Of a DNA stretch of 64,000 bases, positions 2,441 through 52,395 are shown piece by piece (position 1 is the first letter of the stretch; each line of letters opens with the position of its first letter). Source of the stretch: Brachyspira pilosicoli P43/6/78. GTDB taxonomy: Bacteria; Spirochaetota; Brachyspiria; Brachyspirales; Brachyspiraceae. The stretch lies in contig NC_019908.1 in the NCBI RefSeq assembly GCF_000325665.1, positions 930,001 to 994,000 of the forward strand, read 5' to 3'. The position numbers were made by a program, and so were the translations under genes. The notes under the pieces were generated by a model that worked only from the letters and a program-made list of their open reading frames with translations, was not told where the DNA came from and ran no database searches.

Positions 2441-5035
2441 TTACTTATTTTTACTTTTTAGAGTAATCGTAAAATATAAAAAAGCCCGTATTAAAAAATA
2501 CAGGCTTAATAATATAATTTTTTGTTTGTTTATTTTTATTTTTTCAGTATCTGCAGGTACTACAGCTAAATCGCTTACTTTAGCACCATCAGAAATATTA
2601 ACTATTTTTACACCCTTAGCGTTTCTTCCTAACTCTGGTATAGAATCAGCTTTTATCTTTATAGTCATGTCATCTGTAGTAACAACCATTATCTCATCTT
2701 TATCGCCTACAGTTTTTACGCTAACCACATTTCCTGTTTTATTATCAGGCTTAATATAAATCTGACCTTTTCCGCCTCTTCCTTTAGCATTAAACTGCTT
2801 AGAAGAAAGTCTCTTACCTATACCATTCTCAGTGATAACTATTAATGATTCGCCTTTATGTATTCCGTTTCCAGATACACAAATATCATTATCATCTAAA
2901 GTAATACCCTTAACACCAGCAGCGGCTCTTCCCATATTTCTTACTTTCTGTTCATTTATTCTCAAAGCAAGACCAGAAGCAGTAGTCATAATAAAGTCAT
3001 CACCGCTTTCAACAGCAGATACACCTATAAGCTCATCATTATTCTCTAATGTTAAAGCAAGTATACCCCTCTTCTTAGCATTCTCAAGATGTTTAAGCTC
3101 CATCTTTTTAATAGTACCCATCTTAGTAACCATTATAATAGATTGTTTAGGGTTAAAGTCAGATACAGTAAAGTAGCTTGTAATTTTTTCATCTGGTGCC
3201 AAATTAAGTATAAACTTTATACTCTTACCTTGTGAAGTTTTTGTTAGAGCAGGAATCTCATGCACCTTCATCCAGAAAGCCTTACCTCTGTCGGTAAATA
3301 TAAACAAATAATCTTTAGTAGAAGCAACGAATAAGTGTTCTATATAATGTTCGCCTTGAGATTTTCCGCCTTGTACACCTACTCCGCCCCTTCCTTGCGT
3401 ACGATAGCTTGAAGCAGGTACTCTCTTAATAAAGCCCTGAGTAGTGATAGATACTGCCACATCTTCATCATGAATCAAATCTTCTTCATCAATTTCAGTA
3501 TCATTAGTTTTACCTATTATCTCACTTCTTCTGTCATCGCCGTATTTTTCTGCTATATTTTTAAGTTCATCTTTAATAACAGCAAGTATTTTTTCTGGGT
3601 GAGCAAGTAAGTCTTCACAATAAGCAATAAACTCTCTTAATTGCTGTAATTCTTGTTCTATTTTGAGTTTTTCTAAAGCAGTCAAACGTTTAAGAGGCAT
3701 ATCGAGTATAGCTTGAGCTTGTTTTTCTGATAGCTTAAACTTACTCATTAAAGTGTTTCTTGCAGCTTCTGTGTTTTCGCTCTGCCTAATTATTCTTATA
3801 ACCTCTTCAATATTAGCCTGAGCTATTAATAAGCCCTCTAATATATGTGCTTTTGCTTTAGCTTGATTTAAATCATATTCTGTTCTTTTTGTTATTACTT
3901 CAACTCTATGATCAACAAAATATTTTATAAGCTCTTTTAAGTTTAATACTTTAGGCTCGCCATTAACCAAAGCAAGATTAATTATACCAAAAGTAATTTC
4001 TAAATCAGTATGTTTCCATAATTGATTTAAAACAATCTGAGTAGCAACACCCTTTTTAAGCTCTATTATAAGCCTAATACCAGACCTATTGCTTGACTCA
4101 TCTCTAATATCAGCAACACCCTCAATTTTACCTTGTTTAACTAACTCAGCAATCTTTTCATGCAAATTAGTCTTTACAACACCATAAGGAAGCTCTTTTA
4201 CAACAATAGCCTCTCTGTCTTTTTTTGTCTCTTCTATTTCAAGCCTAGCTCTTAATTTTATTCTTCCCTTACCAGTAGTATAAGCCTCTTTAATGCCCTC
4301 TTTACCATATATAATTCCAGCAGTAGGGAAATCAGGACCTTGTATATAACGCATTAAATCTTTAATTTCAGCATCTTGATGGTCTATATAATAAACAATA
4401 GCATTAACAACCTCTTTTAAGTTATGAGGAGGCATATTAGTAGCCATACCAATAGCAATACCCATACTTCCATTAACTAAAAGCTGAGGCACTGTTGCAG
4501 GAAGCACAGAAGGCTCTGTTCTTGAATCATCGAAGTTTGGTACAAATTTAACAGTTTCTTTTTCTATGTCATTAAGCATTTCTTCTGCGAATTTAGTCAT
4601 TCTCGCTTCAGTATAACGCATAGCAGCAGGAGGGTCATCGTCCACAGAACCAAAGTTACCCTGTCCGTCTACAAGTAAATAACGCATAGAAAAGTCTTGT
4701 GCCATTCTCACCATAGTGCCGTAAACAGCAGCATCTCCGTGCGGGTGATAGCGTGCCAACACTTCACCAACCGTAGCAGCCGACTTTTTGTATGGCTTAT
4801 CATGTGTTAAATTAGCATCATACATCGCATAAAGTATTCTTCTATGCACAGGCTTAAGTCCATCTCTTACATCTGGCAAAGCCCTTGACACTATAACACT
4901 CATAGCATAATTCAAATATGATTCTTTTAATTCATTTTCTATAGAAATATGATCAACTCTTTTTAGAATATCTTTTGTTAGTGTGGAATATTTCCTCTCT
5001 TCGGTATTATCATTATTATTCTTTTTTACAGCCAT
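2441..5035 (-). CDS. gyrA: DNA gyrase subunit A
   Basis: Type II topoisomerase subunit that breaks and rejoins DNA to introduce negative supercoils, acting with GyrB (not in this window). The 864-residue frame has the 5Y-CAP domain with the active Tyr141 in AMRYTEARM and the [14 protein letters not shown] motif at 58-71. Six beta-pinwheel repeats begin near residue 530. A degenerate GyrA box, QGRGGVG at 547-553 (usual QRRGGKG), favours gyrase over ParC. The quinolone-determining positions equivalent to E. coli Ser83 and Asp87 are Ala102 and Gly106. The last ~20 codons (after [13 protein letters not shown]) are hydrophobic, unlike the family, and run through the gene's own terminator. This suggests loss of an earlier stop. 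Single gene unit, no operon partner. Confidence 0.95.
2471..2506 (-). terminator. Intrinsic terminator of gyrA, inside the annotated frame
   Basis: AGCCTGTATT (minus strand, 2506-2497) pairs with AATACGGGCT (2492-2483) with one mismatch and an AAAA/TTTT loop. A U-rich tract covers 2482-2471. It is a convincing terminator, yet it lies upstream of the stop codon at 2441 of the gyrA reading frame. Confidence 0.8.
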
Positions 5036-46918: not shown

Positions 46919-48670
46919 TTAAAGCTCAAAAGTATAATGTGTAACAGCCTCGTCAGGATAAAAATAATTATTTCCTTTATCTTTTATCATCTTTAACATA
47001 TCAGCTATTGCTTTATAATATAAATAATAATAATTATATTGTTTATAAATCTCAATATTTTCTGCTGTTTTAAGCATATCATAATATTGCTTTGAAAGAT
47101 TTAATGATGTTTCATACTGATTATCTATTTGAAAGACTCTATCATAATCCACCAAACGAACTATTTTATTATTGAAAGTAAATAAATCAGCCCCTCCGCT
47201 CTGCCAGCCTATAACAGAGTTTATTTCATTATTTGGTATAACACTAACCCAATCAGATTCCTCTGCTTTATCAGGATTTACAGAAGAAACCTGCAATTGA
47301 TAAGCACCAGATTTTTTAATATGCTCTTCTGTAATTGTAAAATTAGTTTCTAATCTATCTGCAGCTTCTTTAATTTCTTTGATAGGCGGAATAGGATATG
47401 TAGCGTTAAAAGTTCTGTAATATCTTCCATTTAATTCTGTATATGAAGGCTCTAAAGGTGTAGCATCTGGGGAATTATATCCTCCCATAACATTTTGTGA
47501 TTTATAAGAAGCGAGAATAACATCACTTGTTAAAATTTTTAAATAATCAGAAGTTGGCTTAGTATCTTCTTTCCAATTTACTCCGTCTTCTGATGAAAAA
47601 TATTTATCTGTATACACATATTTTCCCTTTTGTTGCCATAAATTTCCATCATATTCATAAACACTATTTCCAAAATTAGCTTCACATAAATAAAGCTTAT
47701 TCTCATCAAAAGCAAAATGATTAACATAAAGAAGTTTTGTACCATTATAATCAGGAAAATAATTTGTAGTCCAATTTTTAGCATCACTCATATCTTTACC
47801 ATAATCAATAGTATAATATTCATCAGCATAAAATTCAAAAGAAGGGTCACTTGGGTCTTTATATCCATCAGGATACTCATCTAAAATATTTTTAAATCCT
47901 TTATATAAAAATATTTTTCCTTTATAATAAAACATAAAATATTCTATTACATTCAATCCATATCTTCCTAAAAAATTAGGTTCTATATGATTCGTATTAG
48001 GCATTTTATAAGTTTTTGTAGTTTCAGTTACAGTATCACGCCAATTTATCAAATCATCAGATTCCATGTATCTTTTATGTTCAATAAAATTCTTAACAAC
48101 AACAAATATATCCTTAAGGCTAAAATCTATATTTCCTTTTATAAAATTTTTATCTTCTGTATAATCAAAATCTGTAGTAGTATATGCAAGAGAGATAATT
48201 TTAACTTTATTAGCCTCTATTATTAATTGGTCTGAGATTAAAAAAAGCCAATATTGTTTTGAATCTAGTACTGTATCTTTTGGCGAAGTATATATTTTGC
48301 TTATTGTACTGCCATCATTACCTATTTTTAATAATGCACCTTTTCCTGTAGGAGTAAGTTTTTTAGTATCAGCATCATATTCATATTGATTAGTAGCTAA
48401 TACATACCATTCATTTTTATATTTAAATCTTTTAGAATATCCTCCAAATACTGTATTATCAGGAACTATTTCTGGAGTAACTTTTATTGGTTTTTCTTCT
48501 ACTTTATCTGGAGGGGTTGGAATTGGAGTTGGGATTGGATAATCTGGAACTTCACTTATATTAGGAAATGCTGTTGGAGGAGGTATATAAGCAGAACTTA
48601 ATAAATTTATTTTTTTGCAAGATACTATTAATATCAAAACAAAAAATATAACTGCTATTTTTTTTATCAT
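46919..48670 (-). CDS. Proline-linker lipoprotein (paralogue of 39318-41051)
   Basis: Signal MIKKIAVIFFVLILIVSC, lipid-bearing Cys18, then KKINLLSSAYIPPPTAFPN and a proline-rich linker (PDYPIPTPIPTPPDK). The 583-residue body matches the lipoprotein at 39 kb throughout: VTPEIV, VFGGYSKRFKYKNEWYVLATN, EPSYTELNGRYYRTFNATYPIPPIKEI and VVRLVDYDR-like segments recur in the same order. Probably a beta-propeller by its repeated aromatic strands. The ribosome binding site region contains a run of seven G (plus-strand C7, 48673-48679) three bases before the ATG. First gene of the envelope operon. Confidence 0.7.
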   Translation of the reverse strand: MIKKIAVIFFVLILIVSCKKINLLSSAYIPPPTAFPNISEVPDYPIPTPIPTPPDKVEEKPIKVTPEIVPDNTVFGGYSKRFKYKNEWYVLATNQYEYDADTKKLTPTGKGALLKIGNDGSTISKIYTSPKDTVLDSKQYWLFLISDQLIIEANKVKIISLAYTTTDFDYTEDKNFIKGNIDFSLKDIFVVVKNFIEHKRYMESDDLINWRDTVTETTKTYKMPNTNHIEPNFLGRYGLNVIEYFMFYYKGKIFLYKGFKNILDEYPDGYKDPSDPSFEFYADEYYTIDYGKDMSDAKNWTTNYFPDYNGTKLLYVNHFAFDENKLYLCEANFGNSVYEYDGNLWQQKGKYVYTDKYFSSEDGVNWKEDTKPTSDYLKILTSDVILASYKSQNVMGGYNSPDATPLEPSYTELNGRYYRTFNATYPIPPIKEIKEAADRLETNFTITEEHIKKSGAYQLQVSSVNPDKAEESDWVSVIPNNEINSVIGWQSGGADLFTFNNKIVRLVDYDRVFQIDNQYETSLNLSKQYYDMLKTAENIEIYKQYNYYYLYYKAIADMLKMIKDKGNNYFYPDEAVTHYTFEL

Positions 48671-48782: not shown

Positions 48783-49577
48783 TTATAAACTCACTCTTTT
48801 AGAAGCATCATCAATATCAAGTTTATAAAGCTCATCAACAAAAGCAACTGCAAAACTAGCAGGAGCATCAGCTTTTTTTGAAGCTTTTTCACCAGCTGAA
48901 GCCATTATACACATAGCAGAAGCAGCAGCAATTAAAGGCTCAGCAACAGCAATCATAGCACCAGTTATAGCAGTAGATGTACAACCCATACCGGTATTAA
49001 CAGGCATTAAAGGAGACCCTCCGCTTACATATAAAACTTTGTTTCCATCTGTTATAATATCAGTCTCTCCGCTTATGCTTACAACCGTATTATATTCTTT
49101 AGCTAAATATTTTCCTGACTCTAATGCCATATTAACATTAGCACTGCTGTCTACTCCTTTAGTTTTTATACTCTCACCGGCAAGCACCATTATTTCAGAA
49201 GCATTTCCTCTCACAACTTTAGGATTATAGTTTTTTATTATATCAATAGCAGTTTTAGTTCTCAATTTTGTAGCACCTGCTCCTACTGGGTCAAGTACAA
49301 AAGGAACATTTTTTTTATTAGCTATCTCGCAAGCCTTATGCATAGCCTCAATAGAAGTTTTTGTTAAAGTTCCAATATTAACAACAAGAGATGAAGCAAT
49401 AGAAAGCATATCCTCAAACTCTTCTTTCTCAAATGTCATCACAGGAGAAGCTCCAACGGCAAGCAATGCATTAGCTGTAATTTGCATAACAACATAATTT
49501 GTAATGTTATGCACTAATGGAGATTTAGCTTTCATATCTGTGATTGCTTTAAGTATTTCATTTTGTAAAGTATTCAT
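48783..49577 (-). CDS. thiM: Hydroxyethylthiazole kinase
   Basis: Salvages the thiazole moiety of thiamine by phosphorylating 4-methyl-5-hydroxyethylthiazole. The 264-residue protein has the signatures SPLVHNITNYVVMQITANALLAVGASPVM, FVLDPVGAGATKLRTK, VVRGNASEIMVLAG and PVNTGMGCTSTAITGAMIA with the catalytic Cys. Start has AAGGAG. No ThiE/ThiD partner is adjacent. A TPP-riboswitch-controlled membrane protein lies two features upstream on the same strand, but the ~490-base gap between them makes cotranscription uncertain. Confidence 0.95.
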   Translation of the reverse strand: MNTLQNEILKAITDMKAKSPLVHNITNYVVMQITANALLAVGASPVMTFEKEEFEDMLSIASSLVVNIGTLTKTSIEAMHKACEIANKKNVPFVLDPVGAGATKLRTKTAIDIIKNYNPKVVRGNASEIMVLAGESIKTKGVDSSANVNMALESGKYLAKEYNTVVSISGETDIITDGNKVLYVSGGSPLMPVNTGMGCTSTAITGAMIAVAEPLIAAASAMCIMASAGEKASKKADAPASFAVAFVDELYKLDIDDASKRVSL

Positions 49578-49782
49578 TTTATTACTCCTTAATATTTTTA
49601 TAATAAATGTTTTAACTGCGACATAAATATTAAAGTTAACTATATATGCAGCTAATTACTCATCATTACCTAAAATAAATATTATAATTACTAATTATTA
49701 TTTATACTTTAGCAAAGCATATAAAAGTTTATTAAGTATATAACTATATTTTGTCAAAATAATTTTCTTAGTTTTATTATTT

Positions 49783-49872
49783 GTGGGGACTAGCCCCCAC
49801 ACCCCCACTTCTTTTGCGACCGAAAGGAGTACCTTTAGGTATGCCACAAAGAAGCAAAAAGACTGCATTTTT
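49783..49872. repeat. Palindromic intergenic repeat, module A (copy 2)
   Basis: Starts with a hairpin GTGGGG ... CCCCCAC (49783-49800) and continues through ACTTCTTTTGCGACCG and an inserted AAAGGAGTACCTTTAGG segment. It ends with CAAAGAAGCAAAAAGACTGC followed by ATTTTT. The outer parts match 1374-1415. Located in the 490-base gap between thiM and the YjiH-like gene. The stretch 49578-49780 is AT-rich with no recognised element. Confidence 0.6.
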
Positions 49873-49935
49873 AGGCTATATCCTATATTTAATAGGCATG
49901 TTTTTAATATAAAATTCTAGCAATTGCGTTTTTTG

Positions 49936-49978
49936 CTACTTTGACGAAGTCCGCAGAGCGTGTGCGACAAAAAAGTAG
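49936..49978. repeat. Palindromic intergenic repeat, module B (copy 2)
   Basis: CTACTTTGACGAAGTCCGC through AGAGCGTGTGCG to AAAAAAGTAG: the ends CTACTTT and AAAGTAG pair, and the interior pairs imperfectly. It matches 1234-1275 in the same orientation. It follows module A by 63 bases, whereas at the first locus B precedes A. Confidence 0.6.
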
Positions 49979-50070
49979 ATAAAATTTATATAAAGTGCAT
50001 CAGTTGACAAACTTAAAAATTTTCAGTATATACATAAAATTTTTCTTATTATTTTCCACTACGCTCTAGG

Positions 50071-51423
50071 CTATATTAAAAATAAATATGCAAAAGGCAC
50101 TGCCAATATCAAAGAAAATATTATTCTCTCTATCCATATAACTATAATATCTCTTATCCTTATTGGAATGTCGGTAGCAAGCATACAAGGAATAGGTGCA
50201 GCAAAATAAAGTATCTCAGAAACGCATACTATAGCTATTACACTTTTAGCTAATTGACTTGAATCCATGATAATGCTTGAAGAAGAAAACATCTCTACTA
50301 TTGTTATAGAGCAAGCCTTGGCTACTGTATAAGCTTCGTCTCCTAATCCTAGTAATTTTGTAAACGGTAAAAATATATAACTAACAAAATCAAATAAAGG
50401 TGTATAATTAACAATTAATAACCCTATAAAAGTTATAGCCATAAAATTAGGCATTATCGATATTGATATCAATAAACCATCTTTAAGATTCTTTAATATA
50501 TTATCCAAAAAATTATTTTGTTTGTCAGCAACCTTTACGCCTTCATCTAATGCCTTACTAAAAATATTACCTCCTGTAAATTTAGGTTCTTCAATTACAT
50601 CTCTATTCAAATAGCCTTTATCCGATTTACTTCTTAATGGATAAAGTCTTACTGTAATTGCTGTAACTATGAATGTTATAGCCAAAGTTCCCCAAAAGTA
50701 TATATTCCATTTATCTATGATGCCCAGAGTTTTAGCAACAACAACCATAAATGTAGTTGATACTGTGGAAAATCCTGTAGCTATTATGCATGCCTCTTTT
50801 GTAGAATAGTAACCCTCTTTATAAACTTTATTAGTGATGAGAAGCCCCACAGAATAACTTCCTATAAAAGAAGCTAAAGCGTCTATCGATGACATACCAG
50901 GAGTCTTCCAAATAGGACGCATTATATAACGCATAAATATTCCTACAAAAGCCATAAGACCATAATCAATAAGAAATGATAAACATACTGCACCTATTGG
51001 TATAAGAACTGCCACCTGTGTTAATAATCTATAAGAAAAAGGAAGCATATTGGGTTTATGAAAGTCAGCAGGACCTAACTTAAAATAAGCCATTATAACA
51101 AATGGTATTGCCAAAAGTTTAATAAATGAAAATACTATTTCTGTTTTATTTTTATTCCAAGTCTTACTTATAAATGGATATACTCCTCCAAACATTGTAA
51201 TTATTATACCGTAATAAGGTTCAACGAATGGTATTTTTCTTATAAGACTTACTAAATGGTCTATAGGTATTGATTTTACACCATTAATATTTATGGTGAT
51301 AAAAAACATAAAAACGCCTATAGCACTAAAAATAATAAATTTGAAATATGATGACTTACTGTATTTAATATTAGATAAATCATTATTTTGTAAAACAGTT
51401 TGTGAATTTGAAACATTATTCAT
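50071..51423 (-). CDS. YjiH-family membrane protein under TPP riboswitch control
   Basis: About 450 residues with eight or more membrane segments and the nucleoside-recognition/GATE-type core seen in YjiH proteins (conserved KTPGMSSIDALASFIGSYSVGLLITNKVYKEGYYSTKEACIIATGFS). The YjiH function is not settled. Here a TPP riboswitch with a terminator lies immediately upstream and thiM is the next gene. This suggests transport of thiamine or a precursor such as thiazole or HMP. Start at 51423 (MNNVSNSQT) is chosen because AAGGAA lies eight bases before; the frame also continues upstream from a TTG. Transport role is inference. Confidence 0.75.
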   Translation of the reverse strand: MNNVSNSQTVLQNNDLSNIKYSKSSYFKFIIFSAIGVFMFFITININGVKSIPIDHLVSLIRKIPFVEPYYGIIITMFGGVYPFISKTWNKNKTEIVFSFIKLLAIPFVIMAYFKLGPADFHKPNMLPFSYRLLTQVAVLIPIGAVCLSFLIDYGLMAFVGIFMRYIMRPIWKTPGMSSIDALASFIGSYSVGLLITNKVYKEGYYSTKEACIIATGFSTVSTTFMVVVAKTLGIIDKWNIYFWGTLAITFIVTAITVRLYPLRSKSDKGYLNRDVIEEPKFTGGNIFSKALDEGVKVADKQNNFLDNILKNLKDGLLISISIMPNFMAITFIGLLIVNYTPLFDFVSYIFLPFTKLLGLGDEAYTVAKACSITIVEMFSSSSIIMDSSQLAKSVIAIVCVSEILYFAAPIPCMLATDIPIRIRDIIVIWIERIIFSLILAVPFAYLFLI

Positions 51424-51480
51424 AAAAATTTCCTTATAAATCAATTATTTACAGAAACCTTAATGAAAAATAATGAGTGC

Positions 51481-51523
51481 ATAAAAATAAAAAAACGAGA
51501 CCAATTTAAGAAAACTGATCTCG
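51481..51523 (-). terminator. Riboswitch terminator hairpin
   Basis: On the minus strand CGAGATCAGTT (51523-51513) pairs with AATTGGTCTCG (51506-51496) with G-U pairs, followed by U7 and more U-rich sequence. It lies between the TPP aptamer and the YjiH-like start, so it can act as the expression platform, ending transcription when TPP is bound. Confidence 0.8.
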
Positions 51524-51542
51524 CATTTTTATACAAAATTAT

Positions 51543-51620
51543 TTCCCTACACTGGCATTATCCAACAGGTTATAAGGGTCTAAGTTTTTTCAACTTACTC
51601 TCAGCCTTTCAAAGCTCCCC
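51543..51620 (-). promoter_or_regulatory. TPP riboswitch (THI box)
   Basis: The minus strand carries the conserved aptamer elements in order: GGGGAGC, GGCTGAGAGT, ACCCTTATAACCTG and GGATAATGCCAGTGTAGGGAA split over the three-way junction. These are the pyrimidine- and pyrophosphate-sensing loops of the thiamine pyrophosphate aptamer. It begins 20 bases after the rubrerythrin stop codon and is followed by a terminator and the YjiH-like gene. No other function explains this conserved block. Confidence 0.95.
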
Positions 51621-51639
51621 AAATATAATCTCTATATTA

Positions 51640-52179
51640 TTAATATTTTTGGAACATTCTAGATGAACCTCCGCAAGTTTCACATGTCTCTGGGAATTTA
51701 TCAATATAAATGTTTCCGCAGTTAGGACATAAATATAAAGAGATTTCAGTATTTGTATTTAAAAACTGAGCTTTAATTAACTCAAATAATTTAGCATGTT
51801 CTACCTCTACCTTACCAAGTGAAGTAACTGTTGAGCTTACTAATTTATTTTGTTGCTCTAGCATAACCTCAGCTAATTGAGGATACAAAATAGTAGATTC
51901 GTATACTTCCCCTTTAATAGCTACTTCTAAATTACTTTTATCATCTGCAATTTCAACGTCAAGTAATTGAGGAACAAACTTAGTCATATCTAAGGAACTT
52001 CTTAATGCTAACTTTCTCATTTTTTCAGCATGTATTCGCTCTGCTAATGCTGTAGTAGAAAATACTTTTTGAACAGCCGGATTTTTAGATGCCTTAGAAA
52101 ACTGAGAATATTTATTAGCAGCATTAGATTCCCCTTGAAAAATAGAAAATAAAACTTCTTCAAGAGATTTTACAGCCAT
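51640..52179 (-). CDS. Rubrerythrin
   Basis: Non-haem diiron peroxidase that protects anaerobes from hydrogen peroxide. The four-helix domain has paired Glu residues (MAVKSLEEVLFSIFQGESNAANKY ... AERIHAEKM ... EVMLEQQNKL ... VEVEHAKLF). The C-terminus is a rubredoxin-like iron site with CPNC and CETC. The open frame reaches 52227, but the ATG at 52179 has GAAGGAG eight bases upstream. 179 residues. Its stop lies 20 bases before the TPP aptamer, with no terminator between. Confidence 0.92.
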   Translation of the reverse strand: MAVKSLEEVLFSIFQGESNAANKYSQFSKASKNPAVQKVFSTTALAERIHAEKMRKLALRSSLDMTKFVPQLLDVEIADDKSNLEVAIKGEVYESTILYPQLAEVMLEQQNKLVSSTVTSLGKVEVEHAKLFELIKAQFLNTNTEISLYLCPNCGNIYIDKFPETCETCGGSSRMFQKY

Positions 52180-52395
52180 ATAAATAACTCCTTCAAAATA
52201 GTATTTAATATTTTTTAATGTGTTCATAAAAAAATATTTCTTTATGAAATATATTACATTTAACAGAAAAAAATATCAAGTGCCTAAATAATTATAATTT
52301 TATATTATAAAAAATATATTTTAATAAAATTTGATTATTAGAATATATATAAAACATTTAATAAAATAAGAAAGAAAATAATAATTTATAATAGC

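Follow-up and report, generated by a model that had tools for sequence, protein, structure and literature searches.

In Brachyspira, a genus of gut spirochaetes including animal pathogens, a YjiH-family membrane protein is probably (at about 0.6) a TPP-repressed permease that takes up a thiamine precursor, hydroxyethylthiazole (HET) being the likeliest, and works together with ThiM. The broader proposition, that YjiH imports some B1 compound, is rated as likely. The locus lies in a window of 64,000 nucleotides, the whole stretch of DNA that was analysed, from the genome of Brachyspira pilosicoli P43/6/78 (2,555,556 bases). A sequence-only reading of this window had proposed uptake of thiamine, HET or HMP. 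Thiamine-related transport is given good support by the joint conservation of riboswitch, yjiH and thiM, by a pathway limited to salvage and by the exchange of yjiH between lineages as a cassette that stayed under the riboswitch; the three substrates did not hold up as equals, and HET is preferred.

The TPP riboswitch aptamer is a full-length match to RF00059 at 51631-51527 on the minus strand (cmscan 64.1 bits, E 2.9e-10, gathering score 54.3, model positions 1-105). The stretch 51543-51620, previously recognised as a THI-box aptamer, is the core of this match and stands above threshold in the Rfam check. The intrinsic terminator claimed with it is present as well (51485-51524, minus strand), as a 13-bp stem GCGAGATCAGTTT/AAATTGGTCTCGT at 51524-51495 with a T-run after it. 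Also downstream of the aptamer is a hairpin over the translation start of yjiH (51421-51465, minus strand), in which CAUUAAGGUUUCU pairs with AGGAAAUUUUUAUG and both the Shine-Dalgarno sequence and the AUG lie inside. The fold of the leader beats 200 of 200 shuffles (z -3.7).

The start-codon hairpin is better conserved across yjiH leaders than the terminator. Its 12 pairs are kept in 16 leaders, with 99.5% of pair cells paired, and it folds weakly in L024. The terminator stem occurs in five of the 16 leaders (the window, L015, L017, L024, and L025) and is degraded in the other 11; it is also found in the yjiH-less genome G113, and a terminator looked for in the L003 leader was not found. Covariation gives the hairpin no support because its arms are nearly invariant, and the claim made for it is one of conservation. 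The hairpin is probably a second, translational expression platform of the riboswitch. AACCU in the aptamer core could be an alternative partner for its 5' arm AAGGUU, and such pairing would tie the hairpin to TPP binding. In three yjiH-less species, the leader before thiM ends differently, and its Shine-Dalgarno sequence is covered by an AAUCC/GGAUU pairing.

The yjiH gene (50071-51423, minus strand) encodes a polytopic membrane protein of 450 aa, the most likely start being the ATG at 51423 (Shine-Dalgarno AGGA) rather than the TTG at 51444. The earlier assignment of the gene after the terminator to the YjiH type is supported by the Pfam Gate domain (PF07670, 49 bits, cut-off 29.6), the alignment and the tree, and proteins 42% identical to it (over 84%) are annotated 'YjiH family protein'; its putative membership of COG3314 is a reading of this annotation. 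The protein falls below NCBIfam NF049989 of the CD0519/CD1768 family (34.5 bits, curated cut-off 300). Structure prediction from nine Brachyspira sequences gave no usable model (pLDDT 35, pTM 0.29), and a profile search of PDB sequences with YjiH gave no match. The next gene on the strand is thiM, for hydroxyethylthiazole kinase, as had been read from the letters (48783-49577, minus strand; TIGR00694 277 bits, PRK09355 324 bits, PF02110 271 bits). A rubrerythrin gene (51640-52182, minus strand) forms the conserved left flank. The gap between yjiH and thiM is 493 nt in the window, compared with 33-170 nt in four relatives (L003-L006). This gap (49580-50070) holds a strong GTGGGGGCTAGTCCCCAC hairpin and GC-rich pieces that resemble pieces in the gaps of L004 and L005 and are perhaps a small intergenic repeat; the gap may weaken read-through into thiM.

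Full-length yjiH is carried by 16 of the 26 Brachyspira genomes, and one further genome has a fragment at a contig end. The aptamer is intact in all 16 aligned leaders of the full-length genes, an above-threshold TPP riboswitch lies about 100 nt upstream of yjiH in the contig loci with a complete gene (8/8), and thiM is downstream in every full-length locus with enough flank (15/15). In four genomes without yjiH (G058, G083, G093, and G113), thiM comes immediately after the same riboswitch. The riboswitch therefore belongs to the thiM unit, and yjiH is an optional cassette, inserted into or lost from it. Two of these four loci are syntenic, G113 in the rubrerythrin context and G058 in the methyltransferase context. 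The order in G113 (L049) is rubrerythrin, the flank by which this form of the locus without yjiH is defined, then the riboswitch with the terminator also seen in the window, thiM, and a relative of the gene at 46919-48670; the methyltransferase flank of G058 is common to the yjiH-carrying locus L009 (90.8% identical DNA).

The cassette has also been exchanged between lineages. In G151 (L025), rubrerythrin (92-93%) and thiM (91-94%) match the lineage of the window, and yjiH and phzF match another clade at 92% (L009), this yjiH being only 77% identical to that of the window. These mixed identities indicate that a yjiH-phzF cassette was exchanged by recombination and still came to lie between riboswitch and thiM. 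No other sequence evidence speaks as strongly for selection on the TPP control of yjiH as such exchange under a retained riboswitch. In the clade whose yjiH is 73% identical, the phzF gene (PF02567) separates yjiH from thiM, and it was seen inside the TPP-controlled unit at 7373-8176 of L009, 7351-8148 of L010, and in L025.

YjiH and, in that clade, the PhzF-like protein might on the other hand be passengers of unrelated function in a riboswitch operon. The optional nature of yjiH, the insertion alongside it of a gene from a family with no known role in thiamine metabolism, and a set of salvage enzymes otherwise complete without YjiH would all suit such passengers. Preservation of TPP repression in all 16 genomes and a dedicated, nearly invariant start-codon hairpin would not be expected of them, and this explanation is considered very improbable.

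The YjiH permease proposed here would serve an organism that appears to obtain B1 entirely by precursor salvage. ThiC and ThiT were each found in none of the 26 Brachyspira genomes, and ThiG had no convincing match among them; weak ThiG matches in ten genomes (21-34 bits, about 60-90 of 247 positions) were judged to be chance similarities to other barrel proteins. ThiE is present in 24 of the 26, as are ThiD and ThiL above cut-off; thiamine pyrophosphokinase (TPK) is present in two, the genome of the window not being one of them. In the latter genome, ThiE, ThiD, and ThiL are located at C1:7359, C1:1583568, and C1:1339079, respectively. From the absence of ThiC, ThiG and ThiT, the absence of TPK in 24 genomes and the presence of ThiM, ThiD, ThiE and ThiL, we infer that Brachyspira depends on HMP plus HET. 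Its gene content is that of the dual auxotroph signature 'B1; (HMP+HET)' (PMC6593275). The two divergent Brachyspira genomes G034 (L043, L079) and G147 are the opposite of the other 24 in that TPK is present and no ThiL reaches the cut-off; G034 also has a run of TPP-thiM-thiE-thiD.

That yjiH is paired with thiM speaks for HET as the substrate of YjiH. The gene order points to joint control of yjiH and thiM by TPP in a HET-dependent organism, and in the genome of the window thiD and thiE lie away from the yjiH locus, thiM being its constant partner. The TPP repression and the thiM neighbourhood would be explained equally well if YjiH imported another B1 compound (HMP, thiamine, or thiamine monophosphate) and an OppA-like protein carried HET or the remaining precursor. 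HMP is also needed, as ThiC is missing throughout, and no ThiT was found; thiM may be a mere neighbour; and as yjiH-less species keep thiM, the substrate of YjiH need not be HET. This division of labour is nevertheless unlikely, because free thiamine would need a kinase and the one looked for, TPK, is lacking in 24 of the 26 genomes, that of the window included, and because yjiH is consistently partnered by thiM and not by thiD or thiE.

The OppA-like protein belongs to the second of the two TPP riboswitches in the genome of the window, the first being that of yjiH. This second riboswitch (G000:C1:2550678-2550800; L002; L012 6679-6801, minus) scores 53.7 bits, just under gathering, and precedes a gene for an OppA-like binding protein (SBP_bac_5). 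The pair of riboswitch and OppA-like gene is present in all nine yjiH-less Brachyspira genomes examined, and the protein is an unrecognised candidate carrier of a B1 precursor. The TPP regulon holds two candidate carriers for the two needed precursors. The OppA-like gene in the genome of the window has a frameshift near its start (L012 near 6430) and is intact in relatives; if the frameshift is genuine rather than an error of sequencing, the strain may lean more on YjiH. The sister-genus genome G043 (L046) solves the uptake of B1 precursors in another way, with a TPP riboswitch ahead of an NMT1-like ABC permease and binding-protein pair.

Some of these observations count against HET as the cargo of YjiH. 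Since four genomes have the riboswitch-thiM unit without yjiH, HET salvage does not require YjiH, and HET may diffuse or use another carrier. The OppA-like protein could also carry HET instead, and no TPP link of yjiH was seen outside Brachyspira.

Homologues of YjiH in spirochaetes outside Brachyspira (Treponema-type genomes and the sister genus) are 48-51% identical. The sequence-only reading had looked to such homologues for further linkage to TPP riboswitches, which was not seen: no TPP riboswitch was found with the closest of them, and their loci contain urocanase or formiminotransferase genes instead. As far as tested, the TPP-yjiH link thus appears to be specific to Brachyspira. The gene lies beside urocanase in two of three Treponema-type genomes (L073, L074) and far from it in the third. 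The sister-genus copy (L075) is clustered with genes for formiminotransferase, formate-THF ligase, cyclodeaminase, and urocanase, and homologues from Rhizobiales and Paracoccus (40-43% identity) are in hut loci. Urocanase is present in 4/4 close non-Brachyspira spirochaete carriers compared with 20/270 non-Brachyspira genomes (hypergeometric p 2e-5, phylogeny ignored). COG3314 has been assigned to HutC regulons by prediction, with potential involvement in histidine uptake (PMC5343134, 2016), so the earlier statement that YjiH proteins are without an assigned substrate has to give way to a predicted one, histidine. A TD-1 RNA motif (RF03155) was seen directly before a Treponema-type yjiH homologue (L030 1347-1465), and L031 matches the motif partially at its edge (4216-4284).

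Retained histidine transport is the main rival outside thiamine metabolism: YjiH would still move histidine or urocanate, and its TPP control would be an accident of insertion into the riboswitch-thiM unit. The neighbourhoods of the closest homologues (urocanase, the formiminotransferase/cyclodeaminase cluster, or hut operons), the urocanase found in all close spirochaete carriers, and the HutC-regulon prediction all speak for it. However, none of the 26 Brachyspira genomes has urocanase, and histidine breakdown is therefore not the context of yjiH there; nor did the Brachyspira loci show a hut gene next to yjiH. The cassette also remains under the riboswitch after recombination, and the protein itself has diverged. 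In the tree, Brachyspira YjiH forms one clade inside the hut-linked group, on a stem of 0.79 changes per site, and 17 of the 133 columns conserved in the hut-side group are fixed differently in it. On this evidence, retained histidine transport is improbable.

Residues that are nearly universal elsewhere in the family are among those lost. Position 158 is E in 14/15 other family members, haloarchaea included, and A or S in 16/16 Brachyspira proteins; position 381 is P in 13/14 others with a residue there and S in 16/16 Brachyspira proteins. S410 of the hut clade is replaced by P, again in 16/16. Brachyspira YjiH thus does not carry the residues that mark the hut-linked subgroup (E158, P381, and S410), and the loss of E158 and P381 is in keeping with an altered substrate or coupling. 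The Brachyspira-specific substitutions are not claimed to cluster in 376-410 (Fisher p 6e-4, post hoc; p 0.09 by a scan statistic over all 35-residue windows).

With YjiH as a HET permease, the following mechanism is proposed. When TPP is scarce, the leader would be open and yjiH-thiM expressed. When TPP is plentiful, the aptamer would fold and the terminator form, and the hairpin over the Shine-Dalgarno sequence and AUG would probably shut translation of yjiH. HET would enter via YjiH and be phosphorylated by ThiM on entry; HET-P and HMP-PP would then be joined by ThiE and the product phosphorylated by ThiL. The ancestor of YjiH would have been a transporter of histidine/urocanate type that came under the riboswitch in Brachyspira and acquired a new specificity.

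The whole evolutionary course is put forward tentatively, at somewhat less than even odds: a member of the COG3314/YjiH family of histidine/urocanate type would have become a dedicated TPP-repressed HET importer in Brachyspira through the thiM riboswitch and residue loss, and would have spread between species as an exchangeable cassette always keeping the riboswitch. If true, this would give a new family of B1-precursor transporters and a traceable switch from an imidazole to a thiazole substrate. HET uptake is a recognised gap, as just 64% of the HET auxotrophs among 2,228 surveyed gut genomes could be given a HET transporter (PMC6593275), and YjiH names a candidate protein family to fill it. 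Hut-linked and thi-linked relatives at 40-50% identity would allow a change of substrate within one family to be tested, and the residues to compare are few: E158, P381, and others at 380-382 and 408-410 are those at which the thi-linked clade has become fixed in another state. Neither this class of riboswitch nor the YjiH protein family is new; YjiH/COG3314 with a TPP riboswitch or in thiamine-precursor salvage was not found in the literature searched, most subscription journals lying outside the search.

Several known systems can be compared with the Brachyspira locus. E. coli YjiH and YjiG (yjiH-yjiG-iadA locus) have the family name in common with it but are two short split proteins, very distant from Brachyspira YjiH: E. 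coli YjiH aligns with its first half, and a YjiG-type model weakly matches its second half. E. coli YjiH has R at the position of E158, and its locus is beside isoaspartyl dipeptidase. The TPP riboswitches (THI-box, RF00059) of bacterial thi operons are like that of Brachyspira in the full aptamer, the terminator, and the thiM-containing unit. They differ in that the first controlled gene in Brachyspira encodes YjiH/COG3314, absent from the B1-transporter lists compared, and in that the Brachyspira leader has both a terminator and a start-codon hairpin. ThiW/ThiU presumably constitute a protein family unrelated to YjiH. Their proposed role as candidate HET transporters (PMC6593275) is like that suggested here, namely to provide ThiM with HET under the control of thiamine. 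The COG3314/YjiH proteins of HutC regulons are the closest in sequence, with 40-50% identity over nearly the full length, the same Gate domain, and membership of one clade; in contrast to them, the Brachyspira copies lie under a TPP riboswitch with thiM, in genomes without urocanase, and have E158 and P381 replaced.
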